DNA from: a virus
DNA length: 64,000 bases
IMG/VR virus record: IMGVR_UViG_3300027668_000008
Location: 1-64,000 of that record
Reading direction: 5' to 3' (one strand)
Shown: in pieces, positions 6,987-47,823 of the stretch
Position numbering within the stretch: position 1 is the stretch's first letter
How the letters are laid out: every line of letters starts with the position of its first letter
Program-made: the position numbers and the translations under genes
The notes under the pieces: model-generated
What the model saw: only the letters and a program-made list of their open reading frames with translations
What the model was told of the DNA's origin: nothing
The model's database searches: none

Positions 6987-6992
6987 TGAGTA
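6965..6992 (+). repeat. 28-nt direct repeat, right copy
   Basis: Second copy of the repeat at 6705-6732, offset by 260 nt, which equals the length of the DUF1289 gene unit. It encodes the C-terminal MKKKQL and the TAATGAGTA coupling junction. Confidence 0.8.
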
Positions 6993-10021: not shown

Positions 10022-10761
10022 TGGAATGGCTTGATATAATAAACAACAGGCACACAACGTTTGCTTGGGAAGAAGATAAGATACCAACAGAGGAAGAACT
10101 TGTGGACGTTCTGCAGGAGGTATTCGCACATATACCATCTAAAAATTTACAGTTTCCTTATCAAGTAAGACTTTTAAGGAATAATGATCCTGCGATAAGC
10201 AAAGAAATAATGACTATTTGTAAACGAAACGAACACAAAACAGATGAAGAAGATCTAGGAAATCCTCAAGTACTTGCTCCGTGGCTTATAGGATTTTGTT
10301 CTAGATATGTAGCAGACTTAGAGTCGAGATACGAATCAGACTCAACAAGAGGCCTAGACACGTTTGAACTTCCGGAAGTAGGCACTAGAGAAAGAAAAGC
10401 AAAAATACAAAATCGTGCTGGTAGTGAACGAGGACAAATGCAAACAGAAAATATTGAAATAGGTATTATGTCTACTTATATTATGTTAGCAATGGCTAAT
10501 AGAGGAATACAAACTGGTATGTGTCAAAACATACAAAGAGATTACACTAGAGCGGAAGAGATATTCGATATCGATAGTGATGTTAAAAACCTAGACTTTA
10601 GATTTATAATGGGAGTTGGGTATGGAAAAGATGCTAGTATAAAGCACGAGTACTTCGATCCTAGAATAGATAAAACAAAACTAATTCCGTTTAAGCCAGT
10701 TAATGTAGAAAAAGTATACCCTCGTCCTGTGTTCGACGATGTAATTAAGGTGGTAAAATAA
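10021..10761 (+). CDS. Nitroreductase-like flavoprotein
   Basis: The 246 residues resemble the nitroreductase family (FMN-binding, usually dimeric NAD(P)H oxidoreductases). The N terminus IINNRHTTFAWEEDKIPTEE corresponds to the family's RRS.R.F....I opening, SKNLQFPYQVRLLRN to the substrate/FMN region, and EIGIMSTYIMLAMANRGIQT to the helix before the second FMN contact. It sits between two type B radical SAM genes, coupled to each by TAATG, so it could supply electrons to, or act on the same substrate as, the radical enzymes; that is inference. Some conserved FMN residues cannot be checked by eye. Confidence 0.6.
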   Translation: MEWLDIINNRHTTFAWEEDKIPTEEELVDVLQEVFAHIPSKNLQFPYQVRLLRNNDPAISKEIMTICKRNEHKTDEEDLGNPQVLAPWLIGFCSRYVADLESRYESDSTRGLDTFELPEVGTRERKAKIQNRAGSERGQMQTENIEIGIMSTYIMLAMANRGIQTGMCQNIQRDYTRAEEIFDIDSDVKNLDFRFIMGVGYGKDASIKHEYFDPRIDKTKLIPFKPVNVEKVYPRPVFDDVIKVVK

Positions 10762-27496: not shown

Positions 27497-28803
27497 TATG
27501 CCGCCTTTCTGGTTTTCTTTGGTTCTTCGTTATAATATGCATGAGTTCCAAATGGAGGAACAATGCTTTCATTACCGTGTATAATGAATACTGTGTCACA
27601 ATACAATTCGTCACCCCAACTTCCAAATGGGTAACCATCTGTAAACATAATTAGTTTCTTAGGATCAATACCGTGTTCTTTCATGTATTCCCAATTACAA
27701 TCGAAGTCTGTACCTCCGCCTCCAACTGGTTGGTAATCAATTAGTTCGTCTCCGTTATGCGGATCAAAATCTGCTTCAGCATACACAGAAGTATCAAAGC
27801 ACCATAACTTAATGCTATAATCTTCGTAAGCATCCATAATACCTTTTACTTCACTTAAGAAGTCTTTTGTCATGCTATTACTAATACTACCTGACATATC
27901 AAGTGCAATACAAACATCAATCTTTTCATCGTTGTTCATACCTGGTAGTATTGCATCCATGTGCCATGAACGTCTGTTAATTTTTTGGAAAGTAAAGTCA
28001 CTTTTAATAGTGCTTTCAATTTGTTGTTGTAACAATGTACGCCAATCCATTTTAGGTTGTGTCCAAGACTCTATAAGTCGTTTAACACCTGCAGGAACAT
28101 TACTAGCACCCGAACTCTGTGCCGCACCCATTACAGCCGCTTTCATCTCTTCTTTAATCTGACGCTTCTCTTCGTCTGACAATGAAGGACGTACACTTTT
28201 GCCGCCTTTAGAATCTCCATTACCTTCAGAAGCATCATTGGCTTTTTTGCCTTTACCATCTTCTTCAAGGTGGTCATCTAATACTTTTTGTAAAAGGTCT
28301 TCAATATCAATTTTGTCTGCGTTTTCATATAAGTCATCATACACTTCTTCAAATGACCAATCATAATATTTTCTATCATGTATCATTTCAACAAGTTTAA
28401 TAGGTTCACCAACTGAGTTTTTAACAAGGTCGCCATTAACACAATAGTCAGCGGCAATGTTTGACAAGTTTTTATCACGTCCATGGAACCTTCCCATGTG
28501 GTCATAAACAACGTGCAACACTTCGTGTCCAAATAAGAACATAGTCTCGCCAACAGTTAGTGCATCTATAAATCTTGTATTGTAATAAAAACGTCTACCG
28601 TCTGTTGCCGCCGTAGGCAACCAATCGTCACCATTTACAAGTTCAAGCCTTGTAGCAAGTGTTCCAAAGAATGGATGTTTAATAAGCAAACTAACACGAG
28701 CTTGTACTAATTTCTCTCTAACTTCTAAATCTAATTTAGGATCAGTTTCAAAGCCTGTTTCACAAACAAACTTACCACTGCTTTTATTAGTTTGAAACGA
28801 CAT
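27496..28803 (-). CDS. VWA-domain protein with HExxH metallopeptidase-like N terminus (DUF2201-type)
   Basis: A 435-residue two-part protein. The N-terminal region has His93-Glu94-x2-His97 (GHEVLHVVYDH), a zinc metallopeptidase-like motif, followed by a charged Gly/Ser linker near 180-205. The C-terminal VWA domain has the MIDAS DMSGS (302-306) and GGGGTDF. Such proteins pair with MoxR-type AAA ATPases; the partner is the next gene upstream (29283-30398). MoxR/VWA pairs act as chaperone-like systems that assemble or insert cofactors into complexes. It has its own promoter (28835-28862). The target in this phage is unknown. Confidence 0.82.
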   Translation of the reverse strand: MSFQTNKSSGKFVCETGFETDPKLDLEVREKLVQARVSLLIKHPFFGTLATRLELVNGDDWLPTAATDGRRFYYNTRFIDALTVGETMFLFGHEVLHVVYDHMGRFHGRDKNLSNIAADYCVNGDLVKNSVGEPIKLVEMIHDRKYYDWSFEEVYDDLYENADKIDIEDLLQKVLDDHLEEDGKGKKANDASEGNGDSKGGKSVRPSLSDEEKRQIKEEMKAAVMGAAQSSGASNVPAGVKRLIESWTQPKMDWRTLLQQQIESTIKSDFTFQKINRRSWHMDAILPGMNNDEKIDVCIALDMSGSISNSMTKDFLSEVKGIMDAYEDYSIKLWCFDTSVYAEADFDPHNGDELIDYQPVGGGGTDFDCNWEYMKEHGIDPKKLIMFTDGYPFGSWGDELYCDTVFIIHGNESIVPPFGTHAYYNEEPKKTRKAA

Positions 28804-28834
28804 ATATTACTCCTTTTGTTTAACTTATACTATT

Positions 28835-28862
28835 ATAATAACATCTTTACAGTATTTGTCAA
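28835..28862 (-). promoter_or_regulatory. Sigma70-like promoter, TTGACA-N16-TATTAT
   Basis: On the minus strand TTGACA (28862-28857) is followed after 16 nt by TATTAT (28840-28835), then AATAGTATAAGTTAA and an AAGGAG ribosome binding site for the VWA gene. Confidence 0.8.
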
Positions 28863-28866
28863 TACC

Positions 28867-29109
28867 TTAATGCAAGGTTTTCTTAAATATTTGTCCTATT
28901 AATTGGGGGAATTCGTCTTCTATTTCCATACGAACTGCTTCTTCAATACCCGAATCTGCTATTGCAAGGATCTGCTTCATAGTGAATGCCTTTGTCTCTT
29001 TGTTCTTAGGCATTACTACTGTTTTTAATTGTCCGTTTGGACTAATGACAAGCATCCAGTCATCATCTTCAACAGTGTGAAGTAATTTTTTTATTTCTTT
29101 TTCGGTCAT
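28867..29109 (-). CDS. Small hypothetical protein
   Basis: An 80-residue acidic protein beginning MTEKEIKKLLHTVEDDDWMLV and continuing into a conserved-looking strand-rich part (ISPNGQLKTVVMPKN) and a helix. I chose the ATG at 29109; a longer frame reaches 29208 but its first 33 residues are Pro/Arg-rich and unlikely. It lies between the terminator at 29239-29262 and the VWA promoter. Confidence 0.6.
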   Translation of the reverse strand: MTEKEIKKLLHTVEDDDWMLVISPNGQLKTVVMPKNKETKAFTMKQILAIADSGIEEAVRMEIEDEFPQLIGQIFKKTLH

Positions 29110-30398: not shown

Positions 30399-30437
30399 AT
30401 TATCTCCTTAATTTGTCGTTTTTTTAGTTTATACTTT

Positions 30438-30465
30438 ATAATAACATCTTTTGTCTTGTTGTCAA
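30438..30465 (-). promoter_or_regulatory. Sigma70-like promoter, TTGACA-N16-TATTAT
   Basis: On the minus strand TTGACA (30465-30460), 16 nt, TATTAT (30443-30438), then AAAGTATAAACTAA. It drives the MoxR-type ATPase gene. Confidence 0.78.
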
Positions 30466-30470
30466 CCTTT

Positions 30471-30812
30471 TTAGGCAACATTTTGAAATCCTAAACTTGC
30501 AACAACAGATTTATTACCGCTTTCATCTATGACAATATCTCCAACACTAATTGAATGCATTGGTTTAAATCTTTCTATTTGTTCTTCAGGGCCTATATTA
30601 CCAACTTCAAATACATCTTCTAAATCGTTAGCATTAATATTTGCAACGTGTTCAAAGTAACCATCTTTAAATGCTTGACTGGCTGGAACATTAATATCTT
30701 CTGCAAGAATCATATCCATTTTAGCCTTCTGCTTTGGAACTGAATTATGTCCATGTTCATTGATCATATCAACATCAGCATCTGACAATCTAATTTGAAA
30801 AACTTTATACAT
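30471..30812 (-). CDS. Hypothetical phage protein
   Basis: A 113-residue acidic protein (MYKVFQIRLSDADVDMIN...). The C-terminal part SISVGDIVIDESGNKSVVASLGF looks like a small beta-barrel (SH3/KOW-like) segment. Similar small proteins are common in the early regions of T4-like marine phages. It is expressed from a dedicated promoter (30845-30872) with an AAGGAG ribosome binding site. Confidence 0.65.
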   Translation of the reverse strand: MYKVFQIRLSDADVDMINEHGHNSVPKQKAKMDMILAEDINVPASQAFKDGYFEHVANINANDLEDVFEVGNIGPEEQIERFKPMHSISVGDIVIDESGNKSVVASLGFQNVA

Positions 30813-30844
30813 ATATTCAACTCCTTTGTTTAACTTATATAACT

Positions 30845-30872
30845 ATTATAACACAAACAGTTAATGTGTCAA
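30845..30872 (-). promoter_or_regulatory. Sigma70-like promoter, TTGACA-N16-TATAAT
   Basis: On the minus strand TTGACA (30872-30867), 16 nt, TATAAT (30850-30845), then AGTTATATAAGTTAA and AAAGGAG before the gene at 30471-30812. Confidence 0.82.
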
Positions 30873-30879
30873 TACCTAA

Positions 30880-31083
30880 TTACAGGTATTTTGACATTTT
30901 TTCTTGCCATACTTCATAAAGTCCATCTTCAACGTTATCAGCATCAGAAGAACCAGCAAGTAAATCTTCATGGTGTTTCATTTTGTTAGTAAATTCATCA
31001 AACGATTCACAGTTTGTAATTTCTTTATTTGCAATGTCGTAAAACTTATCTACGTTATCAAATATATAACTACTCATTCCCAT
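30880..31083 (-). CDS. Small hypothetical protein
   Basis: A 67-residue acidic, helical protein (MGMSSYIFDNVDKFYDIANKE...). It carries its own TTGACA-N16-TATTAT promoter and an AAAGGAG ribosome binding site, so it is expressed as a single unit, in the pattern of early phage genes. No family recognised. Confidence 0.65.
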   Translation of the reverse strand: MGMSSYIFDNVDKFYDIANKEITNCESFDEFTNKMKHHEDLLAGSSDADNVEDGLYEVWQEKMSKYL

Positions 31084-31117
31084 TTTTATCTCCTTTGTTT
31101 AATTTAACTTATACTTT

Positions 31118-31145
31118 ATAATAACATCTATTGCCAATGTGTCAA
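31118..31145 (-). promoter_or_regulatory. Sigma70-like promoter, TTGACA-N16-TATTAT
   Basis: On the minus strand TTGACA (31145-31140), 16 nt, TATTAT (31123-31118), then AAAGTATAAGTTAA. It drives the 67-residue gene at 30880-31083. Confidence 0.8.
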
Positions 31146-31259
31146 CCTTTTATTAATCGTGTGTTATATGAAGTATTTGAGCCCTTAAACACCCGTTAAA
31201 TGGTAGTTTAATCGCTTATATAAGGGTCGTATACGGGATCTGCGGGTTTATGTGTAAAC

Positions 31260-33787: not shown

Positions 33788-33964
33788 TTAGTCCTTATTG
33801 ATAATATTTGGTGTAATAGCATCTACGACATTCACAGTCGTCGATACAACTGCTTTAGCAGTGTAGATAGTCGTACTAGCAACTGTGTCAACAACTGCAA
33901 CAGTTGTGCTACAAGCAGATAGTAACGATATGAATGTAATTAATAATATTACTTTTTTGTACAT
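33788..33964 (-). CDS. Small lipoprotein, unknown function
   Basis: A 58-residue lipoprotein: MYKK, a hydrophobic stretch, then the lipobox LLSAC with the lipidated cysteine at about residue 17, followed by a Thr/Val/Ala-rich mature part. The stop lies one base from the nuclease start. Small lipoproteins of this size in phages can be outer-membrane spanins or superinfection-exclusion factors; without an identified inner-membrane partner I do not assign either. Confidence 0.65.
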   Translation of the reverse strand: MYKKVILLITFISLLSACSTTVAVVDTVASTTIYTAKAVVSTTVNVVDAITPNIINKD

Positions 33965-36477: not shown

Positions 36478-37383
36478 TTATGTTCCTATTGCATTTCCAA
36501 ACAAGTAAACGTGTACTCTTGCCGCTACATTGTAGCCACGTTTAAATGCCTTTTCAGCCACTGCACCTGCAGTAGTTGTTTGTTCTTCTTCCCTTGCACC
36601 TGTGGGCATAACCCAAATGGGCCAATCAACACCAGCGTCTTTAAACTTTGCTATTGCTTGTTCCATTTCTTCCCACTCTCTTTCTTTGTGTCCAACTACA
36701 AATTTAAGTTGTCCTTTACTAGAAAGTTCTCTATACTGCTTAACTATTTCTGGCTTAATAGCCTTCTCAGGTTTCTCACCTGATACTGTAAATAGTTTAG
36801 GACTACAAGAAAAGAATATTTCTATATCAATTCTGTTTACCCATTCAACAAACTCGGGTAGTAATTTTTGCGTACCATTTGTTTCAAATGTCATACTAGC
36901 AGGCAAGTTACCTTGTCTTTCAAGTTCTTCATATATACCAATTGTCGCCCGTTGTCCAGTAACCATCAAAGGTTCGCCACCTGTAATACATAAGTGCTGT
37001 CTTTGTTGTGTAACAGGATGTAGGAACAACCCTTCCGGATTGCTCTCATTTTTCATAACGTTAATAATCTTTTGTGCTAACACTGTGGGAGTTTCTTCTC
37101 CCATTAGTTTTTTAAACTTCTTTGCCCAGGTGTAACTACTGTCACAACCTTTATCCCAAACAGGTAAATCTTCTACACGTGATACACTATCAACATCAAA
37201 GTCTTCAAACGGTAATTCGTAAGTGTCAGGTTTTGTAGGATCTATTTGTCCAAATCCATTACACTGTAAGTTACACATGAAGAAACGTATCCAAGCAGTA
37301 GGAACACCTGTGTAATTCCCTTCGCCTTGTATACTATGAAATATCTCCGAATAGTAATACTTCTTTTCTTGTGTTACTGCCAT
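36478..37383 (-). CDS. queE: 7-carboxy-7-deazaguanine synthase QueE, with cluster-loop insertion
   Basis: A 301-residue QueE, which converts carboxytetrahydropterin to 7-carboxy-7-deazaguanine in the preQ0 pathway. SIQGEG (17-22) and ITGGEP are canonical. The SAM-cluster motif is unusual: Cys37-x3-Cys41 is followed by NGFGQ instead of the third Cys, which appears 38 residues later as Cys80 in GCDSSYTW, matching the WCDS.FTW of ordinary QueE. The gene is downstream of queD in one unit. With folE and dpdA it supports a 7-deazaguanine DNA modification pathway. Confidence 0.9.
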   Translation of the reverse strand: MAVTQEKKYYYSEIFHSIQGEGNYTGVPTAWIRFFMCNLQCNGFGQIDPTKPDTYELPFEDFDVDSVSRVEDLPVWDKGCDSSYTWAKKFKKLMGEETPTVLAQKIINVMKNESNPEGLFLHPVTQQRQHLCITGGEPLMVTGQRATIGIYEELERQGNLPASMTFETNGTQKLLPEFVEWVNRIDIEIFFSCSPKLFTVSGEKPEKAIKPEIVKQYRELSSKGQLKFVVGHKEREWEEMEQAIAKFKDAGVDWPIWVMPTGAREEEQTTTAGAVAEKAFKRGYNVAARVHVYLFGNAIGT

Positions 37384-37388
37384 TGTTT

Positions 37389-37838
37389 TTAACCTTTGTA
37401 AATTGCACTATTGGCACCATGCTCGGCACATTCAACTTTTACACAATAACATCTATTGTTTGTTGCTTCACGGATAAGTTTATCTGCAAAGTTAAAGGCG
37501 TGTTCGGCAAACTTCTCTGCACCAACACCGTCCATTACTACAATCTCTGCCAAGTCAAGTTCTTGTAGTTCCATAAACTTGTCCATGTGTGGATCGTCTT
37601 TGTCGATTGCTGTCTTGTGATCAAAGTTATCTTCTAACCATTTCTTCAAAGGTTTAAGTCCCCCAAAGTCTACTGCCCAGTTCTTTTTATCAAGTTCGCT
37701 ACAGCCAAAAGTAAATGTAAATGCTAAACTGTAACCATGTAGTAAATGACAATGGCTATGGTCTGCGTTAGGTTGTCTAAATACTGCCGACAATCCAATG
37801 TTATGTCCGTAATGCTTTGTGCTAAAATATTGTCCCAT
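37389..37838 (-). CDS. queD: 6-carboxy-5,6,7,8-tetrahydropterin synthase QueD
   Basis: A 149-residue QueD/PTPS-family enzyme that turns dihydroneopterin triphosphate into carboxytetrahydropterin. The catalytic and metal region is HSHCHLLHGYSLAFTF, where the usual HGH appears as HGY, so one expected Zn-ligand histidine is replaced; other histidines close by could compensate. FGGLKPLKKWLEDNFDHKTAI and CVKVECAEH follow the family pattern, including the final Glu. It is transcribed from its own promoter (37865-37893), with queE 5 nt downstream. Confidence 0.9.
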   Translation of the reverse strand: MGQYFSTKHYGHNIGLSAVFRQPNADHSHCHLLHGYSLAFTFTFGCSELDKKNWAVDFGGLKPLKKWLEDNFDHKTAIDKDDPHMDKFMELQELDLAEIVVMDGVGAEKFAEHAFNFADKLIREATNNRCYCVKVECAEHGANSAIYKG

Positions 37839-37864
37839 GTATTAATACTCCTTAATTTATATAT

Positions 37865-37893
37865 ATTATACTACTATTTAGGTTCGTTGTCAA
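37865..37893 (-). promoter_or_regulatory. Sigma70-like promoter for queD-queE
   Basis: On the minus strand TTGACA (37893-37888), 17 nt, TATAAT (37870-37865), followed by ATATATAAATTAAGGAG before the queD start. Confidence 0.8.
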
Positions 37894-37900
37894 GGTAATT

Positions 37901-38884
37901 CTAATAATTCCAAACAGAACCAACATATCCTTTACCAGTAGTATCGCCAAATTCGTTATCTAATTCAACACCGTTATATGATATAGTAGTAATAATAGTA
38001 TCACCATTAGGCATTTCAGTTGCACTAATGTCAATCTTACTAACATCAAGTTGCTTACCTTCGGTTTTAACATAGACATCGTGGAATGTGCCTTTTTCAA
38101 TACTCATGAAGAAGAATACATAGTTGTTGCCATTTTCATCTGCATGAGCATCTAAATCCATATAATCAACTTTAATCTCTTTACCATTACGTTCTAATAG
38201 TTTATCTAAGGATTCGTTTTCAACGAGTGTCTCGATCCATTCGGTTCCCCAACTCTTGTCACTGTCTACTTCGTCAATTTCTATATGAACACCATTAGTA
38301 TCAACACCATTTGAATGTTCAATATCGTCTTTCTCATGCCATGCCATATGACATTCATGTTCTGGATCCCACATAAAGTCTGCTTCTTGTGGCATATCAT
38401 TATGCTTACGAAACTCTTCTGGATCATTTGCATAGTCTTCTAGTGTATTGAGATTCGGATTAAATGCATTGTCTTTTTTGTTTTTGTCCCAGTTATTCCA
38501 GAACTCAAATTGTTCTTTAGTTAACTTTGCATAAACACTTTCGCCACCGTAGCCATGTAACCTGATACGATAATGCCTTACTGGCTTCTTAATAACTTCA
38601 ATTAGTTCTTCGTGTGCTTCTTCAGTTGTTTGTACATCTGTAACATTGGCAACTTTAAAACTACGCCAACCTTTTGCATTAATATCATATACACCAATAT
38701 TCTCTAACTGTTTGGCACTTGGTTCTTTCTTTTCTTTAGTACCTTTTGGCATTGCTTCTTCGGGGATAAGTTTAGGATCAGTTGTGCAAGTCATAATGCG
38801 TTGATCACCATTTAGTTTAGTAAAGGTTACTATACTTTCACCTGTCCTAAGACGTTCCATTAATGTTTCTTTAGTATAACTCAT
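37901..38884 (-). CDS. DUF2693-like phage protein
   Basis: A 327-residue protein. The N terminus RLRTGESIVTFTKLNGDQRIMTCTTDPKLIP is split here as TGESIVTFTKLNGDQR and IMTCTTDPKLIP, the pattern of DUF2693, a small phage-associated beta-domain. A second conserved-looking part covers VRHYRIRLHGYGGES..KLTKEQFEFW. The C-terminal half is acidic. It shares the ATGA-type junction with 38884-39159. Function unknown. Confidence 0.65.
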   Translation of the reverse strand: MSYTKETLMERLRTGESIVTFTKLNGDQRIMTCTTDPKLIPEEAMPKGTKEKKEPSAKQLENIGVYDINAKGWRSFKVANVTDVQTTEEAHEELIEVIKKPVRHYRIRLHGYGGESVYAKLTKEQFEFWNNWDKNKKDNAFNPNLNTLEDYANDPEEFRKHNDMPQEADFMWDPEHECHMAWHEKDDIEHSNGVDTNGVHIEIDEVDSDKSWGTEWIETLVENESLDKLLERNGKEIKVDYMDLDAHADENGNNYVFFFMSIEKGTFHDVYVKTEGKQLDVSKIDISATEMPNGDTIITTISYNGVELDNEFGDTTGKGYVGSVWNY

Positions 38885-39159
38885 TAACCTTCTCCAACAT
38901 TATTATCATTGTCCGCTTCGAGAATAGCAACTTGTGTACTTTCCCAATAGTTAATTACATCTGTGAACCCACATTGCATAACAGAATGTTTGTCAAGTTC
39001 TTCTTCAGTATATACTGCAAGTTCATCAATTTGTTCTTGTGTAAGATTAACAACGTCGTCAACATTATAGTATTCTTCTACACGTTCTTTAACACGTTCG
39101 AATATATCATTCATAATATTATCTTCGTGCTTGTGTATTCTGTCCCATTCGAATGCCAT
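38884..39159 (-). CDS. Small acidic hypothetical protein
   Basis: A 91-residue, strongly acidic helical protein (VEEYYNVDDVVNLTQEQIDELAVYTEEEL). It ends where the DUF2693-like gene begins and starts 12 nt after the phosphoribosyltransferase gene stop, with an AGGAG-type ribosome binding site. No family recognised. Confidence 0.6.
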   Translation of the reverse strand: MAFEWDRIHKHEDNIMNDIFERVKERVEEYYNVDDVVNLTQEQIDELAVYTEEELDKHSVMQCGFTDVINYWESTQVAILEADNDNNVGEG

Positions 39160-39171
39160 TTTATTTCTCCT

Positions 39172-39660
39172 CTATTCCCATGGATAAACTAGCCAAACAT
39201 CTTCTTCGGCTTTATTAACTTCGTGTGCTTGATACCTAACGGAACCAAAGTCACTTGAATTATTTTCGGTTAGTACTGCAAATCTTACATTACTATCCCA
39301 TACTTTTTGTACTTCACCGACATCAACGGCTTTAGCCCAATCTTCACAAATCCAATTGAATGTTGCACCACTGTCATTGATATCATCGATAATCAATATC
39401 TTCTTACCTGCAAAAGCGTCTAGAGGCATCCAGGTATTACTTTCTGTTTTAATAAAAAGACCGTCCCTGTCACGCAACCTTACATCTAATGTGTACATAG
39501 GAATACCAGTTCTATTACTCATCATAATAGCAGGTGTTAATCCACCCCTGGTTAATCCTACAATGTATTCTGGTCTCCAGTCATCATTGTACATCTGTGT
39601 AATGATAGATGTAACCATCTTCTCTACATCATGCCAATCATATATATGTTTCTTTATCAT
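39172..39660 (-). CDS. Phosphoribosyltransferase-family protein
   Basis: A 162-residue type I phosphoribosyltransferase fold. The PRPP-binding loop is ILIIDDINDSGATF (89-101) with the Asp92-Asp93 pair, and GLTRGGLTPA (about 35-44) is the second loop. Members salvage nucleobases or regulate pyrimidine genes; short relatives are frequent in phages. The base specificity cannot be read. It starts 9 nt after the cupin-like gene. Confidence 0.82.
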   Translation of the reverse strand: MIKKHIYDWHDVEKMVTSIITQMYNDDWRPEYIVGLTRGGLTPAIMMSNRTGIPMYTLDVRLRDRDGLFIKTESNTWMPLDAFAGKKILIIDDINDSGATFNWICEDWAKAVDVGEVQKVWDSNVRFAVLTENNSSDFGSVRYQAHEVNKAEEDVWLVYPWE

Positions 39661-39669
39661 CTTTGCCCC

Positions 39670-40170
39670 TTAAATGTTATCTTCGCCTAAATACGTTTTG
39701 TGATCTGTCCAAACATACTTTACTGTTTTAGTTTTAAAATCTCCAAACATTTGATCAACTTTCTTTGGGTGAATAAAACCCCAGTCCTTACTTTTCTTAC
39801 CTGGAATAAAAATAGTCCAAGGTGTAATACCTGGCTCTAGTTCTACTCTGTGCATACTATCTGCCGTTGCTTTAATAAGAGATCCAGGACCTCTCCATTC
39901 TCTTGTTGATCCTACAACTGCTCCAGTCTCAGGTACTATAACTGGTACCCATTCGTGATAGCCACCTTTAAGAATAAATGTAGTATAACCCCATGGATGG
40001 TCATGTAAATGATCAGGATCACTTTTTACAAACTTGTGTAAAAATATGTTAAAAGGAAAGTTCTTTCTATCCTTAAGGAACAAGTAATACCTTTCTAAAT
40101 ACGGTTCACCTGTTTGCCTATCATTTATAATTCTATATCTTCCTAACCATGTCATTAACTTCTTAAACAT
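39670..40170 (-). CDS. Cupin-like protein
   Basis: A 166-residue protein with a jelly-roll pattern: PDHLHDHPWGYTTFILKGGY gives the first cupin motif with several histidines, and the second part has DSMHRVEL. A metal-dependent small-molecule enzyme or a sugar-related isomerase is possible. It lies between an exported histidine phosphatase and a phosphoribosyltransferase. Role unknown. Confidence 0.65.
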   Translation of the reverse strand: MFKKLMTWLGRYRIINDRQTGEPYLERYYLFLKDRKNFPFNIFLHKFVKSDPDHLHDHPWGYTTFILKGGYHEWVPVIVPETGAVVGSTREWRGPGSLIKATADSMHRVELEPGITPWTIFIPGKKSKDWGFIHPKKVDQMFGDFKTKTVKYVWTDHKTYLGEDNI

Positions 40171-40179
40171 TACTATCCC

Positions 40180-40752
40180 TTACTGCTTGTTCATCAAATC
40201 ATATGGAGTACTAATTACTCCAATTCTAGTTAGATTTGTATCTACTACTAGCATTTGTCCACTGTCTGCTTTGAAGCCTGGAAAAACACTGTTCATTACT
40301 TTGAAATGTGTAAAGACGAACAAGTTTCCTTTACCATCCCAACTCTTTATTAAATCTCTAATCTTATCAAACTCTTTTGTTTGTGAATCAAACAACTTAT
40401 TCTTTTTAAATTCTATTCCGGCATACTCGGCAGTTTGCCAACATCTACAAATAGGACTTGACCATGCCTTCTCAATTTTAATATTATGTTCTCTTAAGAA
40501 TACACCAATTGCTTTTGATTGTTTAATACCTTCTGACATTAAGTTTCTTTGGTTACCACATACCTTACTACTCTTGTCTTCGTTAATACCTTTTACTTTA
40601 GGTGCGTAGGCGTGTCTTACAAATACAATCATTCCACCTTTTTGCATTGATTCAATTGTTTCTGCTCTATTAAACTCGTTACTAAACCCCCAAGCATGAC
40701 TTGAAAGTGTCAATGTTGCAATTACTGTTGCTATTAATATTTTTTTAAACAT
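40180..40752 (-). CDS. Exported histidine-phosphatase-like protein
   Basis: A 190-residue protein with a signal peptide (MFKKILIATVIATLTLSSHA, about 1-20). The mature part has VFVRHAYAPK with Arg46-His47, the RHG motif of histidine phosphatases in the form RHA, then WSSPICRCWQTAEYA and FVFTHFKV with the second catalytic His. It would act in the periplasm, perhaps on phosphorylated metabolites or surface phosphates. Periplasmic phosphatases could serve phosphate supply in poor seawater, which is inference. Confidence 0.8.
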   Translation of the reverse strand: MFKKILIATVIATLTLSSHAWGFSNEFNRAETIESMQKGGMIVFVRHAYAPKVKGINEDKSSKVCGNQRNLMSEGIKQSKAIGVFLREHNIKIEKAWSSPICRCWQTAEYAGIEFKKNKLFDSQTKEFDKIRDLIKSWDGKGNLFVFTHFKVMNSVFPGFKADSGQMLVVDTNLTRIGVISTPYDLMNKQ

Positions 40753-40754
40753 AA

Positions 40755-41051
40755 CTATCTATTTGCCCACCTTTCTTCCTGTTCTTTTCTTTCGATCAAT
40801 TTTAAATGTGCTGGTCTCATGCCATGTTTCTCTGTCATGTTAACAACTATCATTCCTTTTAACTCCATTAAAAGAGCATCATGTGGGTGCATAGGTTCAA
40901 TTTCATTACCTTCGTCCCAACTGTAAACTTGCCATTCAGGATCATATACTTCGTCTATAGGATCTAACTTACTACTAAACAATCCGTTTCTAAATGATAG
41001 TCTTAATTCTTCTAACGTTTGATCATTTGGCTTTTTAAAACTTGTATGCAA
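40755..41051 (-). CDS. Hypothetical protein, TTG start
   Basis: A 98-residue hydrophilic protein with many Glu and Asp residues (EVYDPEWQVYSWDEGNEIEP) and a helical end. The only start compatible with full length is TTG at 41051, inside the last codons of the subtilase gene (17-nt overlap). No family recognised. Confidence 0.5.
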   Translation of the reverse strand: MHTSFKKPNDQTLEELRLSFRNGLFSSKLDPIDEVYDPEWQVYSWDEGNEIEPMHPHDALLMELKGMIVVNMTEKHGMRPAHLKLIERKEQEERWANR

Positions 41052-43965
41052 TTTGTACTCCTAAGTTTGTGTCAGCAAATCCACCTGTTCTTTGTTCAAC
41101 ATATGCTTTGAAGTCTACTGTATCTATATTATACTTGTAATATGCAGTAAAGTCAAGGTTTCTTTCGTCTGTTTTCATATTAACTTTAGTTTCTGTATTG
41201 TTTACGTTACCATCCATATCTCTACTAGTAGGTACATTATACGTCATACTAGCAGTTTCAATAGTAACTGGCTGACTTACACTTGCACCCCAACCATTCT
41301 TTTCAACACCAGCACTCCATGTACTACTGTAAATATCGCCTGCTTTACTTAACATACTCCATTCATTACTGTAAGAATTTTTAGTGTAACCTAAACCAAA
41401 CTGTCCAAATACCTTAACATCATTATAAGATGCATTGTAATTGAAGTTGGCATAAGTTGTGTATGCATTATCTAAATTACCAAACACACCTGATTGACTG
41501 TTTCCTAAAAACGAATTTGCTTCGTTAAAGAATCCAGGTTGTATTGTCCACTGATGATCTGGATTATCATTTAATGCAATGTGCGGTAATGCCAAGTGTT
41601 GGTCATAATTACTATACCCTGCATACATATTTGTTGCCGCCAATGTGTGTGTAAATTTATTTGCTCTTGTATCTACTTTATATGAAGTACTCATGTCTAC
41701 ATAAAAATCTCTTTCATAACTATCTAATACCATTACACTAGCAAGTTCTGACATAGCACCACTGCTACCTGAAACATATCCTGACAGTGAACTTACACTA
41801 CCATTTGTTCTACCAGTGGTAGGAATACCTGTTACTCCAACTGGTTGTGTTGCTTTATCTAAATCTAACAATCCTTGTCCGTGTGTGTTTACATTATAGT
41901 TTGCAATAGTTTTATCAGCAGTTTCTGTAAGAAGTCTTACAAGGTTCTTGCCTTTCATGTGAGGCCACATTTGATTAACAATAGCAACTGCACCTGTTAC
42001 TACCGGAGCCGCCATACTAGTACCTGACATATGTACATACCCTGTACCATTATTATCTGTACTGTACACACTCGTACCCGGTGCAAGTATATAGTAATCA
42101 CTTATACTTGCGGCATCTGTACAAGCATCATTAACATAAGTTGTACATACCGTGCCTGCTTTGTTACTAAATCCTGATATCTGATTGTTAGCAATATCCC
42201 AACTACCTACTACAAGCATTTGCCCATCTAGTATTAAGTTACCATTGCTATCAGTTGCAGTAGCCATTTGGTTCATACCTGGACTATATTCATACCCTTG
42301 GTTACCTGCGGCTTTAACTAATACCATGTCATCACCTAATGCAGTTTTCCAACCTGTTGCTTCGTCTTTTGCACCATTGTAACCATTTACACCATAATAC
42401 CAATGTGTACTATGCCATTGTCCGTTACCATCTAATGTAAGACTTCTTTTAAATCCGTTATCTAATCTAACTTCGGCACTAACATTAATTGCTATTGCTC
42501 CGTTATCCTTGCCCCACTGTGCGGCTTTTTTGGCCCTGTAAAAACTATATGCAGTATTGTCTGTTACTTTTGCAATCATCATAGTAACATCTGGTGCTAC
42601 ACCAATTATTCCGTTACCATCAAGTTCTGCACCTGTAATACCTGCAACGTGTGTACCGTGTCCGTTACTGTCCGAAACATCTGTACTATTGTCTAAGAAG
42701 TTTTTAGTAAGTCCAATGTTACCATCTAAGTCTGTGTGGTTTACGTTAGCACCACTGTCTGCAATAACTACAATACTTCCTTTACCTGTCCAACCTCTGC
42801 TCCATGCCGCATCTGCATTAATAGTAGACAGCACGTTATCGTTAACAAAGTCTGCAAGTCCAAAGAACTCGTCTGTTCTATATAAGTTATTATCTTTAAT
42901 AGCACCAGGAGTTACTGTACCCAAGTCGCTATGTGTATATACAACATTTGCATATGAAACTGATGTGTTGTTTTCTTCTTCAACAACTTCTTCTTCAACA
43001 ACTTCTTCTTCTACAGGAGCATCACCATTCTTAATGTACTCGTAAGTTATAACAGGACTTGCTGGAACAATGTGCGTAGAAGTTTCAACAACTGTAATAG
43101 CCTTAACACTATTGTCACTATACGTTATGTTGTATGTTACATTCCACGTCTTAATTAGGTTTTCGTTCATGTTTGTTTGAACTCTATACTTGTCGCAAGT
43201 TCCTGTATGAGTTGTGCCATCTTGTAATATTTGATTAGTGCAATCTACTGTAGCATTAAATGATTTACTAACATCACCTGCTACTGTTGACTCTACTACT
43301 TGGCTTTGTAATTCTTTTGCAACTTGTTCTCTAGAAACTTCAGTTACTTCAACTACTGGTTCCTCTACAATAGGCTCTTCTACAATAGGCTCTTCTACAA
43401 TAGGCTCTTCTACAATAGGCTCTTCAACTACTGGTTCTTCTACGACAGGGGCAATAATATCTTTAACATCTTCAACTTCAATCTCACCTGTACCAACCTT
43501 TTCAAAGTCAATCTTATCTTCATTTTGTGCAAAGGCTTTTACATCTAAATATGCACCAGTTTCATCATCAAATGTTCCGCTATCAGCAACACCTTTCCAA
43601 AAGGTTTCTTTACCATCATAATAAACTTTCTTGTAACCTTTAAGTTTATTCCATGCTTGGTCAAGTGGAGTTGCAACACCATCGATTTCAACTGTATAAT
43701 TTTTTAATACGGATTCATCAATACTATTATTGTTCATCCATTCAAATACTTCTACTGCCTCCTGGGCAGTTACTTTACCATCTTCGGTAACAGTTTGTAT
43801 TACTGCAAGATTTCCTATACTATTGGAAATTAATGAATTAAAAGAAACAGTTCCAATATTAGTTGGAGTTGGTGCAGTGATACTAATACTTCCACCTCCA
43901 CCACCGCCACAAGCGGTAAGAGCCAACATACTAACCATTCCTAACACTGCTGTCTTTTTATTCAT
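41035..43965 (-). CDS. Subtilisin-like lipoprotein with autotransporter-like C terminus
   Basis: A 976-residue protein from the ATG at 43965 (AGGAG ribosome binding site). A lipoprotein signal ends in LTAC (Cys19) followed by six glycines. Two low-complexity acidic linkers, with VEEPI repeats near 174-205 and EEEVVEEEVV near 318-332, precede an S8 peptidase domain with Asp403 (IADSGANVNHTDLDG), His436 (NGHGTHVAG), Asn555 and Ser650 (SGTSMAAP). The last about 250 residues are strand-rich with a terminal LGVQIAYKF, like an outer-membrane beta-barrel. It is predicted to be a surface or envelope serine protease, unexpected in a phage. Confidence 0.85.
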   Translation of the reverse strand: MNKKTAVLGMVSMLALTACGGGGGGSISITAPTPTNIGTVSFNSLISNSIGNLAVIQTVTEDGKVTAQEAVEVFEWMNNNSIDESVLKNYTVEIDGVATPLDQAWNKLKGYKKVYYDGKETFWKGVADSGTFDDETGAYLDVKAFAQNEDKIDFEKVGTGEIEVEDVKDIIAPVVEEPVVEEPIVEEPIVEEPIVEEPIVEEPVVEVTEVSREQVAKELQSQVVESTVAGDVSKSFNATVDCTNQILQDGTTHTGTCDKYRVQTNMNENLIKTWNVTYNITYSDNSVKAITVVETSTHIVPASPVITYEYIKNGDAPVEEEVVEEEVVEEENNTSVSYANVVYTHSDLGTVTPGAIKDNNLYRTDEFFGLADFVNDNVLSTINADAAWSRGWTGKGSIVVIADSGANVNHTDLDGNIGLTKNFLDNSTDVSDSNGHGTHVAGITGAELDGNGIIGVAPDVTMMIAKVTDNTAYSFYRAKKAAQWGKDNGAIAINVSAEVRLDNGFKRSLTLDGNGQWHSTHWYYGVNGYNGAKDEATGWKTALGDDMVLVKAAGNQGYEYSPGMNQMATATDSNGNLILDGQMLVVGSWDIANNQISGFSNKAGTVCTTYVNDACTDAASISDYYILAPGTSVYSTDNNGTGYVHMSGTSMAAPVVTGAVAIVNQMWPHMKGKNLVRLLTETADKTIANYNVNTHGQGLLDLDKATQPVGVTGIPTTGRTNGSVSSLSGYVSGSSGAMSELASVMVLDSYERDFYVDMSTSYKVDTRANKFTHTLAATNMYAGYSNYDQHLALPHIALNDNPDHQWTIQPGFFNEANSFLGNSQSGVFGNLDNAYTTYANFNYNASYNDVKVFGQFGLGYTKNSYSNEWSMLSKAGDIYSSTWSAGVEKNGWGASVSQPVTIETASMTYNVPTSRDMDGNVNNTETKVNMKTDERNLDFTAYYKYNIDTVDFKAYVEQRTGGFADTNLGVQIAYKF

Positions 43966-44059
43966 TAACTTACTCCTAAACCAATTAAGAAAAATATAAA
44001 CCAAACTAGGAAAAGTGCTATTGCACTCTTCCATATAAACGATATTAAATCGTTTAACA

Positions 44060-44317
44060 TTAAGCCGCCTCTAACATTGACATTGGAACAGTATAAGTTG
44101 TACCAATAGCACTGTGCGTCTTAACTAAACATTTCTTTTGATTAATTTTAGTAATTGTACCAAGTGTTTTCTTAGTCTTCTGTACAATATAAACGTCCAT
44201 ACCAACTGACAGACTTGCTTTTGCATTAAGTACTTTAACTTCGTTAATAAAACTAGTAAGAGCATTAAGTTCTGTTAAAGACATAGACATTACTTCTTTT
44301 TTAATTACTGTATTCAT
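44060..44317 (-). CDS. Hypothetical protein with KOW/SH3-like segment
   Basis: An 85-residue basic protein from the ATG at 44317, coupled to the upstream membrane gene (TAATG). LSVGMDVYIVQKTKKTLGTITKINQKKCLVKT resembles, in two parts (SVGMDVYIVQKTKK and GTITKINQKKCLVKT), an SH3/KOW-type barrel that often binds RNA or protein. Function unknown. Confidence 0.6.
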   Translation of the reverse strand: MNTVIKKEVMSMSLTELNALTSFINEVKVLNAKASLSVGMDVYIVQKTKKTLGTITKINQKKCLVKTHSAIGTTYTVPMSMLEAA

Positions 44318-44511
44318 TAAGCATCTCCTTTGATTAAAATAACTGCACCAGTGGCTAACATTGCCAGTCCAACTGCCGCGATTTGTAACATTTCTGTAAT
44401 AGAGTTTCCGGGACCACATTTTCCATCACAATCACCGCCTGATCCTGCCATTGCTATAATACCTAAAACAATTAGTATATACGCGGTTGTTTGCATTACT
44501 TTATTAAACAT
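44317..44511 (-). CDS. Small two-span membrane protein
   Basis: A 64-residue protein with hydrophobic segments at about 7-24 and 40-60, separated by a Gly/Cys/Asp loop (GSGGDCDGKCGPGNS). It is driven by its own strong promoter (44546-44573) and translationally coupled to the 85-residue gene downstream. A small holin-like topology is possible but nothing proves it. Confidence 0.6.
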   Translation of the reverse strand: MFNKVMQTTAYILIVLGIIAMAGSGGDCDGKCGPGNSITEMLQIAAVGLAMLATGAVILIKGDA

Positions 44512-44545
44512 ATTTGCTACTCCTTATTAATTAACTTATATTACT

Positions 44546-44573
44546 ATAATAGCACATCTAGCCTATCTGTCAA
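44546..44573 (-). promoter_or_regulatory. Sigma70-like promoter, TTGACA-N16-TATTAT
   Basis: On the minus strand TTGACA (44573-44568), 16 nt, TATTAT (44551-44546), then AGTAATATAAGTTAATT and AAGGAG before the small membrane protein. Confidence 0.8.
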
Positions 44574-44628
44574 CCTAATAACGCATTAAAAAACCCAATG
44601 AAAACAAGGCTCTTTAATCTTTTTTTTA

Positions 44629-44856
44629 TTATTTTTGCCTAAAAAGTGCTTGTATATCCTTCTTAGACATACCATATGCTTGTTCACCGGGTTCTAACAC
44701 ATCAATTACTGTGTCGCCTCTTGCTTCTATTGTTTGGTCAAGACGATTGATTGCATCTTGCTTACTAATAGCTCGTACATAATCAACGTTGAAAGTCTTT
44801 AATTTAGTGTCGGGGCGAGATCTTACCATAAAACTTGTCATTAAACTTGTTAACAT
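44629..44856 (-). CDS. Small hypothetical protein
   Basis: A 75-residue basic protein (MLTSLMTSFMVRSRPDTKLKTFNVDYVRAISKQDA...). The middle part (TFNVDYVRAISKQDAINRLDQTI) looks like a strand-helix-strand unit such as phage PIN/PPase helper proteins, but I cannot name it. It has an AAAGGAA ribosome binding site and its own promoter. Confidence 0.6.
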   Translation of the reverse strand: MLTSLMTSFMVRSRPDTKLKTFNVDYVRAISKQDAINRLDQTIEARGDTVIDVLEPGEQAYGMSKKDIQALFRQK

Positions 44857-44885
44857 ATGGTTCCTTTTTCTTGTTTTAATATTAT

Positions 44886-44913
44886 ATTATACAGGATTTT
44901 GCTAATCTGTCAA
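44886..44913 (-). promoter_or_regulatory. Sigma70-like promoter, TTGACA-N16-TATAAT
   Basis: On the minus strand TTGACA (44913-44908), 16 nt, TATAAT (44891-44886), followed by ATAATATTAAAAC before the gene at 44629-44856. It lies immediately after the yhhQ terminator. Confidence 0.8.
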
Positions 44914-44929
44914 CCTTTGGCCCATAAAA

Positions 44930-44951
44930 AAAGCCACCCGAAGGTGGCTTT
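44930..44951 (-). terminator. Intrinsic terminator after yhhQ
   Basis: AAAGCCACC (44930-44938) and GGTGGCTTT (44943-44951) form a perfect 9-bp stem closed by the tetraloop CGAA (TTCG on the minus strand), followed on the minus strand by a run of seven T. It ends the yhhQ transcript. Confidence 0.9.
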
Positions 44952-44980
44952 AGTTCCAAGTTATCCGATAACTGTTTAGG

Positions 44981-45589
44981 TTATTTTAACTTGTATTTCT
45001 TTTGTAGATGCTTGAGTAACAGACCATATGCTGGTAAGAATATGATTAAGCCTACTGCAATTTTAATTACAACTTGTGAACCTGCAATCTCAATCCAATT
45101 TGCCGCCATATATTCATCAGCACCGTTGTTAAATGCAACTGCAAAGAATGTGTAAGTATCGATGATGTTTGCCGCCACAGTTGATACCGCAGGTGCCAAC
45201 CACCAATTGTTCTTAAATCCTTCTCTGATGTATTGGAATACATATACATCAAGTAATGTACCTACTGCGTATGCAGTAGCACTTGCAAAGCCAATTCTTA
45301 ATGCAACAGATCCTGGTGCACCTTCGGCTAGTACAACTGCTATAGATCCAATAATTGCTAACGGATATGCCGCCGCAATAGTTTGCCTTGCAATGCTTTT
45401 GCCTAGTAACCTAACAGTTAAGTCTGTTGCAATTACTACTAATGGGAACGTGAATGCCGCCCATGTTAATTTTACTCCAAATATCTCTACTGGAATACCG
45501 ACCAATGCATTTGATACTGTAATCACAATAACGTGTAGTGCTACAAGTTTCATCAACATAGTTTTGTCTACGTTCTTAAAGTTAAACAT
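44981..45589 (-). CDS. yhhQ: YhhQ/QPTR-family queuosine precursor transporter
   Basis: A 202-residue integral membrane protein with about six hydrophobic segments. The VUT/YhhQ features are visible: a long early ATDLTVRLLGK segment, RIGFASATAYAVGTLLDVYVF, and AANIIDTYTFFAVAF. The family imports preQ0, preQ1 or related deazapurines in bacteria. It ends at a strong terminator, and a GGAGG ribosome binding site precedes the start. In this phage it complements the folE/queD/queE/dpdA genes by giving a second source of 7-deazaguanine. Confidence 0.88.
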   Translation of the reverse strand: MFNFKNVDKTMLMKLVALHVIVITVSNALVGIPVEIFGVKLTWAAFTFPLVVIATDLTVRLLGKSIARQTIAAAYPLAIIGSIAVVLAEGAPGSVALRIGFASATAYAVGTLLDVYVFQYIREGFKNNWWLAPAVSTVAANIIDTYTFFAVAFNNGADEYMAANWIEIAGSQVVIKIAVGLIIFLPAYGLLLKHLQKKYKLK

Positions 45590-45630
45590 AAGTTTCCTCC
45601 GTGGTGTATGTTATGTTATAATTAATCATA

Positions 45631-46119
45631 TTATTTGTATTCGAAATTCTGCGTGGTTGTATTAATTTCGATCAACCTTGCACCATTCTTAATATGAAAG
45701 TGTGTTGCCATTGGTGTCAATGGTGATAAAGTTACTACACGTTTAATGTGTGGTAACTCTTTTGAAATGTATTCTTTTAGTTTAAGAATAATTTCCCTTC
45801 CTGCACCTCGTTTACGAGACCATACAGTGTAGGCTATTGCTATTGTTGGGTTACTTTCTAAACTAGCCGTCTTACTCATTAGTTCCAATTCTTTTTCAGT
45901 AGTTGGTACTTCATTTGTATAGGCTATGCAAATAATTCCTTCAATAGTATCTTCGTACTTCAATCCATAAATTTTACGTCCGTAACTTGTTCTAAACTCT
46001 AAGTCTAGGTTAGGACGTACAGGATCTTCTGTTACGTCAATTTCGTGTAGCTCAACTAGTTCGGCACCTTTAACCCACCTGAAGAAGTTGTCTATTTGTC
46101 CTTTGTAATCTTTTAACAT
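45631..46119 (-). CDS. GNAT-family N-acetyltransferase-like protein
   Basis: A 162-residue protein with TIAIAYTVWSRKRGAGREII, in which the RKRGAGREI turn resembles the acetyl-CoA pyrophosphate loop (motif A) of GNAT enzymes, followed by VVTLSPLTPMATHFHIKNGARLI as motif B with the typical F....GA. The acceptor substrate is unknown. It directly follows the start of the membrane gene 46119-46355 in the same unit. Confidence 0.65.
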   Translation of the reverse strand: MLKDYKGQIDNFFRWVKGAELVELHEIDVTEDPVRPNLDLEFRTSYGRKIYGLKYEDTIEGIICIAYTNEVPTTEKELELMSKTASLESNPTIAIAYTVWSRKRGAGREIILKLKEYISKELPHIKRVVTLSPLTPMATHFHIKNGARLIEINTTTQNFEYK

Positions 46120-46355
46120 TATACTAGTTCTTCTAATATGCCTAGTAATTCGGCAATTATGAATAAGATACCTGCCACCAAAAGATTACCGTAGAGGAGT
46201 GATCCTCCGGCGCCTATTCTTAAAAACGATTTGACCAAACTGACATAAAAATGGCCCATGCTTGGATCCTTTGGGGCAGGTGTTATCCCTTTGGGGGATT
46301 TTGGTTGTTCCGTAACTGGAACATAAACTCTCTCTGGTATTGGCATAGATGGCAT
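46119..46355 (-). CDS. Small membrane protein
   Basis: A 78-residue protein with a Pro-rich N terminus (PERVYVPVTEQPKSPKG) and a C-terminal hydrophobic segment (about 52-74). It starts directly after the stop of 46356-46673. Function unknown. Confidence 0.55.
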   Translation of the reverse strand: MPSMPIPERVYVPVTEQPKSPKGITPAPKDPSMGHFYVSLVKSFLRIGAGGSLLYGNLLVAGILFIIAELLGILEELV

Positions 46356-46673
46356 CTATCCTCCGAAATAATGTTGAAATAGTCCTGCGACTAATAATGT
46401 TGTTAATGTTGCGTTTAGCATAGTAAGGGCTCTGTCATGCCAAAGCATACCTACCCAAAACCATCCTACTGTTCCTATTAAACTAAACCATAAGTCTATA
46501 AGAGGTATTGTACCTACACTTCTAGCCGCAACGGCAGTTAGTATAAAAAAACTTGCCGCCCACTTAATGTACCACGACAAGTCTCCTTTAGGTGTAATCT
46601 TTTTGAAGACTCTAGAGCTATTAAGTTTTGCTATTTTATCGTCAAGTTTTTCTTTAATCGGTTCTATTGTCAT
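46356..46673 (-). CDS. Small multi-span membrane protein
   Basis: A 105-residue protein with a charged N terminus and three hydrophobic segments. The part VGWFWVGMLWHDRALTMLNATLTTLLVAG resembles the end of the small membrane protein at 58219-58455 (IWVVVGVLWKEKSLIVLNAGLT), so the two are probably paralogues. Function unknown. Confidence 0.6.
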   Translation of the reverse strand: MTIEPIKEKLDDKIAKLNSSRVFKKITPKGDLSWYIKWAASFFILTAVAARSVGTIPLIDLWFSLIGTVGWFWVGMLWHDRALTMLNATLTTLLVAGLFQHYFGG

Positions 46674-46779
46674 TCTCTTTATCCGTTGTGTCCATAAACT
46701 TAAATAGGATTAAGTATAGAACTATAACAGTAACTACCATACCTAGGAAGAACAAACCTATCCCGTCACTAAATGTCAT
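46654..46779 (-). CDS. 41-residue single-span membrane protein
   Basis: A short ORF beginning at the TAATG overlap with the gene upstream and overlapping the start of 46356-46673 by 20 nt. The peptide MTFSDGIG is followed by a 20-residue hydrophobic stretch and a polar tail ending NDNRTD. The tight coupling supports it; function unknown. Confidence 0.5.
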   Translation of the reverse strand: MTFSDGIGLFFLGMVVTVIVLYLILFKFMDTTDKENDNRTD

Positions 46780-46934
46780 TATCGTTTAGTACGTTTGCTT
46801 AATTTGTCCTTAACTTTATACTTAGGACTGTTGGTTTGTTTCTTCATATGAAGTTGTAACCACTCGTAGTCTTTCTTTTCTAAGAGTGTTCCATCATCAC
46901 ATATATGGTATACTATTGGTTTAGAACTAGTCAT
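46779..46934 (-). CDS. 51-residue basic protein
   Basis: A short ORF (MTSSKPIVYHICDDGTLLEKK... ending KLSKRTKR), strongly basic at its C terminus, overlapping 46927-47130 by 8 nt and coupled by TAATG to the next small membrane protein. Function unknown. Confidence 0.5.
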   Translation of the reverse strand: MTSSKPIVYHICDDGTLLEKKDYEWLQLHMKKQTNSPKYKVKDKLSKRTKR

Positions 46935-47130
46935 TAAATTCAGACCTCACGATATGTTTTCTTAATGCTCTAACCAGTTCTTCAATTTTATCTATTACGG
47001 ATATTAAACTTTTATCTGTAATAAATGCTTTACTACTTTTTAACTTGTCGTATTCTTTTAAAGTTAATGTTACAGTACTTTGTTCGTTTTCGAACGTTGC
47101 ATCATTATCTCTATCATCTACACTTGTCAT
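46927..47130 (-). CDS. Small hypothetical protein
   Basis: A 67-residue charged protein (MTSVDDRDNDATFENEQST...) with a helical C-terminal half (VIDKIEELVRALRKHIVRS). It starts 6 nt after the folE stop. A coiled-coil or dimerisation role is possible; no family recognised. Confidence 0.55.
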   Translation of the reverse strand: MTSVDDRDNDATFENEQSTVTLTLKEYDKLKSSKAFITDKSLISVIDKIEELVRALRKHIVRSEFND

Positions 47131-47136
47131 AAAGTC

Positions 47137-47823
47137 CTATCTAGGAGCAAACTCCTGTTGTAGTTTAATGTTATCGAAGAACTCTTGCTTTGTACCAGCG
47201 TCATTTGTAAATGCACCTTTAAGTACTGTAGTTTGTGTTAAACTACTGTGTGCCATAATGCCACGATTCTCACAACAACCATGTGTTGCTTGAATGTAAA
47301 CACCCACGTCTTCACTTCCAGTTGCATTCATAATTTCTCTAGCGATATTATTACAAAGTTCTTCTTGCAGTGTGCCACGTCTTGCACACCACTGAGCTAT
47401 ACGAGTGTATTTGCTCAACCCAATCAATTTCTCTGCCGCAAGTATTCCTATGTATGCGACACCAGTTACTGGTTGGTGGTGATGAGAACAGACACTTTTA
47501 AGTTCACTACGAACCACCAAAATACCTGTGTATGCATCTGCCATCTCTTGTGGAAATGCAGTTGCATTAGGCTTTGGAAAATAGCGTCCACTCATCAATT
47601 CGTTAATATACATTTTAGCAAGACGTCTACCAGTGTCGTTACTGTTAGGATCATTTTCTCTATCAATAAGCAAACTATCTAGTACACTACTGAACTTAGG
47701 TGTAAGTTCTTCGATTAGTTTCTCAGTATCACCATCTTCAAGATACTTGCTAATGTTATCTCCAGCCCAATAACGTCCTTTATCAGCCTGGATTCTTTTT
47801 TTAATTTCTTCACTTATACTCAT
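47137..47823 (-). CDS. folE: GTP cyclohydrolase I FolE
   Basis: A 228-residue FolE, which opens GTP to dihydroneopterin triphosphate, the first step toward 7-deazaguanine and folates. Zn and active-site residues are in place: Cys112 and His114/115 in CSHHHQPVTG, and His181-x-Cys183 in HGCCENRG, with GLSKYTRI and QEELCNNIA between them as in bacterial enzymes. It provides the precursor for queD and queE at 36.5-37.8 kb, and folate for ThyX is a second possible use. Confidence 0.95.
   Translation of the reverse strand: MSISEEIKKRIQADKGRYWAGDNISKYLEDGDTEKLIEELTPKFSSVLDSLLIDRENDPNSNDTGRRLAKMYINELMSGRYFPKPNATAFPQEMADAYTGILVVRSELKSVCSHHHQPVTGVAYIGILAAEKLIGLSKYTRIAQWCARRGTLQEELCNNIAREIMNATGSEDVGVYIQATHGCCENRGIMAHSSLTQTTVLKGAFTNDAGTKQEFFDNIKLQQEFAPR

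Follow-up and report, generated by a model that had tools for sequence, protein, structure and literature searches.

A gene of a giant T4-like phage encodes a subtilisin-type serine protease that is predicted to be exported and anchored at the outer membrane of the infected cell. The gene lies in a window of 64,000 nucleotides (the whole stretch of DNA that was analysed), comprising positions 1 to 64,000 of the virus record IMGVR_UViG_3300027668_000008. It is proposed that the active enzyme is an early product of the phage infection and is exported by the Gram-negative host cell. Two anchors, a lipid at the N terminus and a beta-barrel at the C terminus, would fix the protein in the outer membrane, with a long spacer of acidic and beta-strand segments separating the lipid anchor from the protease domain. 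Anchored in this way, the enzyme would cleave host envelope proteins, most likely surface-exposed ones, and so remodel the surface of the infected cell. A loss of phage receptors, leading to the exclusion of competing phages, would be the most plausible benefit, and we hypothesise superinfection exclusion as the advantage gained. An early protease that is anchored in the outer membrane and attacks envelope proteins of the host, chiefly on the surface side, is given an even chance of being the correct reading. The gene and its phage context, the catalytic triad, the lipobox, the barrel-type C terminus, the selection acting on the gene and its shared descent with proteobacterial S8-barrel proteases were computed; from these we infer activity, early timing, action on the surface rather than the periplasmic side, and the nature of the target proteins.

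The gene is whole and occupies 41035-43965 on the minus strand, as do all parts of the protein given below, with an ATG at 43965, a stop at 41035 and a product of 976 residues. An in-frame ATG further upstream would give a version of 999 residues, but the start at 43965 is favoured by the signal peptide, by a GGAG-like ribosome-binding site and by its conservation in relatives. The protein matches PHROG 3677 (protease; E 9.8e-34), its nearest solved structures by sequence are subtilisins, and the single domain above the Pfam cut-off is Peptidase_S8 (PF00082; residues 394-694, 41884-42786, E 1.1e-31). Within this domain lie the catalytic residues of the S8 family: Asp403 (42757-42759), His436 (42658-42660) and Ser650 (42016-42018), together with Asn555 at the oxyanion-hole position (42301-42303). 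All four align with the catalytic residues of relatives and are intact in every relative aligned over the sites, the Asp in all that cover its position and the other three invariant; one relative (L060) is truncated ahead of the Asp position. A catalytically dead branch (L041 and others), in which a first pattern search missed the Ser motif, was considered and rejected, as the alignment shows GTSQAA in place of GTSMAA with all the residues there. Catalytic competence is well supported on sequence grounds. The record, of 306,714 bases, contains the gene only once.

The record itself is viral. On it lie gp23, the major capsid protein of T4 (E 2.3e-99), together with a T4-type prohead protease at 232-235 kb, a terminase match and, at 55.5-58.2 kb of the window, a T4-type DNA polymerase; its source is a giant T4-like phage. 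Another IMG/VR contig (L003) agrees with the record at 99.991% identity across 22,928 bases, and on both sides of the protease lie preQ0-pathway and metabolic genes of phage type. The preliminary description had placed the protease in a phage and had named host DNA or an assembly chimera as the finding that would overturn this. The placement stands, with T4 hallmark genes on the record, the 99.99% identical contig and synteny conserved in more than 20 phage contigs. An origin of the gene as host DNA included in a phage contig, or as the product of a chimera, gains something from the occurrence of its domain architecture in bacteria too. Its probability is nevertheless negligible, and we treat it as excluded, because T4 hallmarks lie on the same record, the neighbours are of phage type, the independent contig agrees at 99.99% over 22.9 kb, and relatives occur in 69 viral loci with conserved synteny.

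The preQ0-type genes that flank the protease (36478-47823, minus strand) encode QueE-like, QueD-like and FolE (PHROG 2197) proteins, and a Vut_1 family transporter is found nearby at 44981-45589. The next larger gene downstream (40180-40752, minus strand) encodes a histidine phosphatase with a probable signal peptide (Pfam His_Phos_1, 1.5e-6), and a histidine phosphatase is also found near the protease in three other contigs (L002, L003 and L021). This protein is a possible functional partner of the protease and might provide a second activity that modifies the envelope.

Phage proteases often mature capsids, and a few tail and baseplate proteins are found among the structure matches of S8-like type. 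A role in the virion, in morphogenesis or at the tail is nevertheless highly improbable: the neighbours are preQ0 and metabolism genes rather than structural ones, relatives with intact N termini carry export signals, and the genome has its own T4-type prohead protease adjoining gp23 at 232-235 kb. Identity with the prohead (maturation) protease itself is rejected, since Peptidase_S77 and gp23 are both at 232-235 kb of the record and the S8 gene is at 41-44 kb.

Residues 1-19 (43909-43965) form a lipoprotein signal peptide ending in the lipobox LALTAC19, with Cys at +1 and Gly at +2, as in bacterial lipoproteins with a type II signal peptide. A lipobox is found in 25 distinct N termini of the family, this one among them; the +2 residue is G, Q, N or V, and Asp occurs at +2 in 0 of the 25. 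An N-terminal lipid anchor is predicted from this motif. Lipoboxes occur both in the branch to which the window belongs and in a branch with a ClpA-like neighbour gene, whereas in eight relatives (L041, L042, L050, L055, L058, L075, L077 and L084) the N terminus resembles a plain signal peptide, which replaces the lipid anchor. The catalytic and C-terminal domains are the constant part of the family; the N termini vary by branch.

Between the lipobox and the protease domain the protein has a long spacer. A mostly helical region at residues 42-168 (43462-43842), modelled by AlphaFold2 with low to medium confidence, is followed by an acidic VEEPI repeat linker at residues 172-207 (43345-43452), encoded by a 15-bp tandem repeat of 5.3 copies at 43364-43443. 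Three very long predicted beta strands, which may serve as a stalk or spacer, then occupy residues 211-312 (43030-43335; pLDDT about 60-80), and a second acidic repeat linker (EEEVV; 42973-43015, 15-bp unit, 2.9 copies) follows. Among the four closest relatives the acidic linker is of varying length and composition. The suggestion that the VEEPI tract is prone to length change is borne out by this comparison, as copies are more numerous in L021 than in the window and L019 has EEEK repeats instead.

The C-terminal domain (residues 708-976, 41038-41844) is predicted to be an outer-membrane beta-barrel. The full-length AlphaFold2 model, built from a 35-row alignment, gives a pLDDT mostly about 90 for the S8 domain, low values for the linkers and 10 long strands at the C terminus; the same strands appear when the C-terminal domain is modelled alone (pLDDT 71.8, pTM 0.68). 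The models are of moderate confidence overall (pLDDT 72, pTM 0.57-0.68), and neither predicts a long pore helix. Hydrophobicity alternates along the strand columns to a degree reached in only 1 of 5000 permutations, the 10 long strands being amphipathic, and the protein ends in Phe. Of the 41 distinct C termini of the family, 31 end in F, W or Y, the non-aromatic ends being confined to one lineage with a tail of 52-69 residues after the barrel. This tail, seen in L012 and relatives (e.g. 12191-12364 of L012), has conserved cysteines in the members aligned. Asp748 and Arg752, near the start of the domain, are invariant, and the clade of the window lacks about 45 residues of the domain relative to most relatives. 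Thus the open reading frame, its coordinates and triad D403/H436/S650, the lipobox, the acidic repeat linkers and the strand-rich C terminus ending in Phe, all of which the preliminary description had reported, were recovered, the open reading frame exactly and the strands in both models.

Solved structures matched by the C-terminal model are mostly outer-membrane barrels, with OMPLA first (E 1.3e-3) and porins, FapF, AlgE, EspP and AaaA among the further weak matches; none reaches E <= 0.001, and TM is at most 0.39. A sequence-profile search of the C terminus against solved structures gave chance matches only. Two named barrel families were rejected by hhalign against alignments made from proteobacterial genomes: the classical (type Va) autotransporter barrel, with a probability of 4% against 20 PF03797 barrels, and Porin_4, with 2.8%. 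By HMM search, 0 of 35 family members match PF03797 at E 0.1. The viral C-terminal profile does match the C termini of bacterial S8 proteins, at 99.75% (E 3e-27), and in these proteobacterial proteases, as here, the S8 domain is followed by the homologous C-terminal domain, which has no Pfam name. Judged by these profiles, the C-terminal domain is real, common to bacteria and phages, and distinct from the classical autotransporter translocator. The view of the protein as an envelope protease of bacterial type, its triad intact and its end barrel-like, is upheld, and its export and outer-membrane anchoring have good support in the sequence.

The closest characterised parallels are NalP of Neisseria and SphB1 of Bordetella, lipidated subtilisin-like 'Group 15' autotransporters which act on surface proteins (PMC9289746, PMC9977779). 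These share with the phage protein, in which the features are predicted, an N-terminal lipid, an S8 catalytic domain and a C-terminal outer-membrane barrel (PMC9289746, PMC9977779). They differ in that the phage barrel has no match to the defining PF03797 by HMM or, at 4%, by profile-profile comparison, and in that the phage protein is phage-carried and has a long acidic and beta spacer between lipid and protease. It cannot be taken for granted that the protease is moved to the surface, since the barrel is not a PF03797 translocator.

By default, a domain that precedes a barrel lies in the periplasm. The protease may then be a periplasmic enzyme, attached to the outer membrane through its lipid and barrel, which degrades proteins of the periplasm or envelope and might, for instance, weaken the envelope ahead of lysis or eliminate stress or defence factors. 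This is a real possibility, if a rather unlikely one: the barrel differs from the classical translocator, the models predict no long pore helix, and lipid and barrel would both sit at the outer membrane without any translocation, but the known lipidated subtilases with barrels work at the surface. The strongest form of the surface reading, in which T4-like phages have dedicated outer-membrane subtilases that reach the surface by way of a barrel with no sequence relationship to those of known autotransporters, strip surface proteins and exclude competitors, is unlikely as a whole. The nutritional reading is more doubtful still. Extracellular subtilases commonly digest external proteins for nutrition, and the N-terminal spacer could project the protease domain, so that a secreted or displayed enzyme might digest external proteins to peptides that feed the infected cell. 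We regard this as very improbable, as no peptide transporter is found among the neighbour genes tested and a gain within one infection cycle is doubtful.

Expression early in infection is consistent with the promoter context. A sigma-70-type promoter (TTGACA-16-TATTAT; 44546-44573, minus strand) matches the consensus and lies in a region also conserved in L002 and L020. It precedes two small open reading frames and then the protease; the first start codon after it is at 44511, and that of the protease lies about 580 bp downstream of the promoter. Modules of a promoter and leader (TTGACA/TATAAT-like, then AAGTTAA and AGGAG), 73-85% identical in pairs, are dispersed in the window before several genes (near 972-1024, 28800-28892, 30400-30471, 30794-30901, 31086-31151 and 44490-44582). 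Promoter-like sites in total show no excess (28, against 24.4 in shuffles), and the promoter argument therefore draws on the near-perfect sites and on the fact that they recur. The T4 late motif TATAAATA is depleted in the window (2 found, 11 expected); both sites lie elsewhere, and none was found near the protease gene. The consensus matches suggest that the protease is expressed early, and a sigma-70-type rather than late context counts against a lysis-timed role for a periplasmic enzyme.

The gene is not peculiar to one phage. A scan of IMG/VR found 17 loci with the single protein as query and 69 with an alignment, most of the matches extending into the C-terminal domain or to its end; in genome contigs the corresponding scans found 0 and 6 loci. 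A search for the gene in related phages had been proposed as a check, and these 69 loci, with their conserved phage neighbourhoods, answer it. Two groups can be distinguished by synteny. In the first, to which the window belongs, the neighbours are FolE, QueD, QueE and phosphoribosyltransferase genes; in the second they are a ClpA-like ATPase, peptide deformylase and a gene read from its sequence as DnaJ-like. Both groups look T4-like, since the DNA polymerase family of the window's record is present in 5 of the 8 contigs tested from the second. The family is thus widespread, virus-dominated and found in at least two T4-like lineages.

Against 50,697 phage records the S8 domain gave distant matches and the C-terminal domain none, and at the nucleotide level the DNA region has no near match among known phages; so far, the family is known mostly from uncultivated viruses. 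Subtilases of Bacillus phages (SP-15, Goe3, vB_BcoS-136 and others; PHROG 3677) likewise have a phage-encoded S8 domain, but match the catalytic part only (9-35% of the query), the C-terminal domain being unmatched in those records. Among viral models, the C-terminal model is matched best by an S8 protein from an uncultured phage (TMq 0.70). The uncultured Caudovirales protein A0A6J5TBB6 ('Peptidase S8/S53 domain containing protein') matches over S8 domain and barrel (TMt 0.71 over 721 columns) and over the barrel alone (TMq 0.70), but is shorter, at 689 residues, and its public entry has no functional description. In the open-access PubMed Central literature no description of a phage subtilase family of this kind was found.

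All regions of the protease are under purifying selection where this could be calculated, with dN/dS (Nei-Gojobori) of 0.06-0.37 in the N-terminal region, the S8 domain and the C terminus; two regions of one pair (L042/L050) were saturated. Conservation of this kind across the family goes far beyond chance. In a tree of 48 proteins, 29 viral copies and two from bacterial metagenome-assembled genomes (MAGs) form one clade (support 100/99, stem 0.84) which stands apart from the other proteobacterial S8 proteins. These include uncharacterised proteases (Henriciella L090, and L097-L110) that share the S8 domain and the homologous C-terminal domain (99.75%), usually with an aromatic C terminus and in several cases a lipobox, but are bacterial and fall outside the well-supported virus-dominated clade. 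Of 399 genomes in a sample from the phylum to which a Henriciella genome belongs, 30 encode proteins with both domains. It had been suggested that phylogeny might identify a bacterial donor: a shared proteobacterial S8 family is evident, but no single donor emerges, and the deeper part of the tree is limited by long branches. The gene was probably acquired from proteobacteria.

Both MAG copies (L086 and L087) are nested within the viral clade. L086 is on a 4-kb contig and may be viral. The other, from a Hylemonella MAG (4359-6857 of L087), groups with the phage protein L084. Its neighbours, recognised from sequence only, are of chromosomal type (an ABC transporter cluster and DedA-like and amidase-like genes), and on this basis a prophage or mis-binning was rejected for the Hylemonella copy. 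As L087 has such neighbours, at least one exchange of the gene between phage and bacterium is likely.

Phages are known to alter host surfaces by means of small lipoproteins or sugar-modifying enzymes. The T4-like phages of this family probably use their own enzyme to remodel the surface of the host cell. If so, a conserved family of outer-membrane-anchored proteases in at least two T4-like lineages would represent a new way to alter the host surface, and the stripping of surface proteins would be a phage-encoded, enzymatic form of superinfection exclusion. The family would also define an unnamed barrel domain common to bacterial and viral proteases.

Two further features of the window were observed. 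At least six radical SAM proteins are clustered at 1219-15813 on the plus strand (PHROG 14086, 21308 and 1802), unusually many for one phage region. A predicted small lipoprotein of 58 residues (MYKKVILLITFISLLSACS...) is encoded at 33788-33964 on the minus strand.
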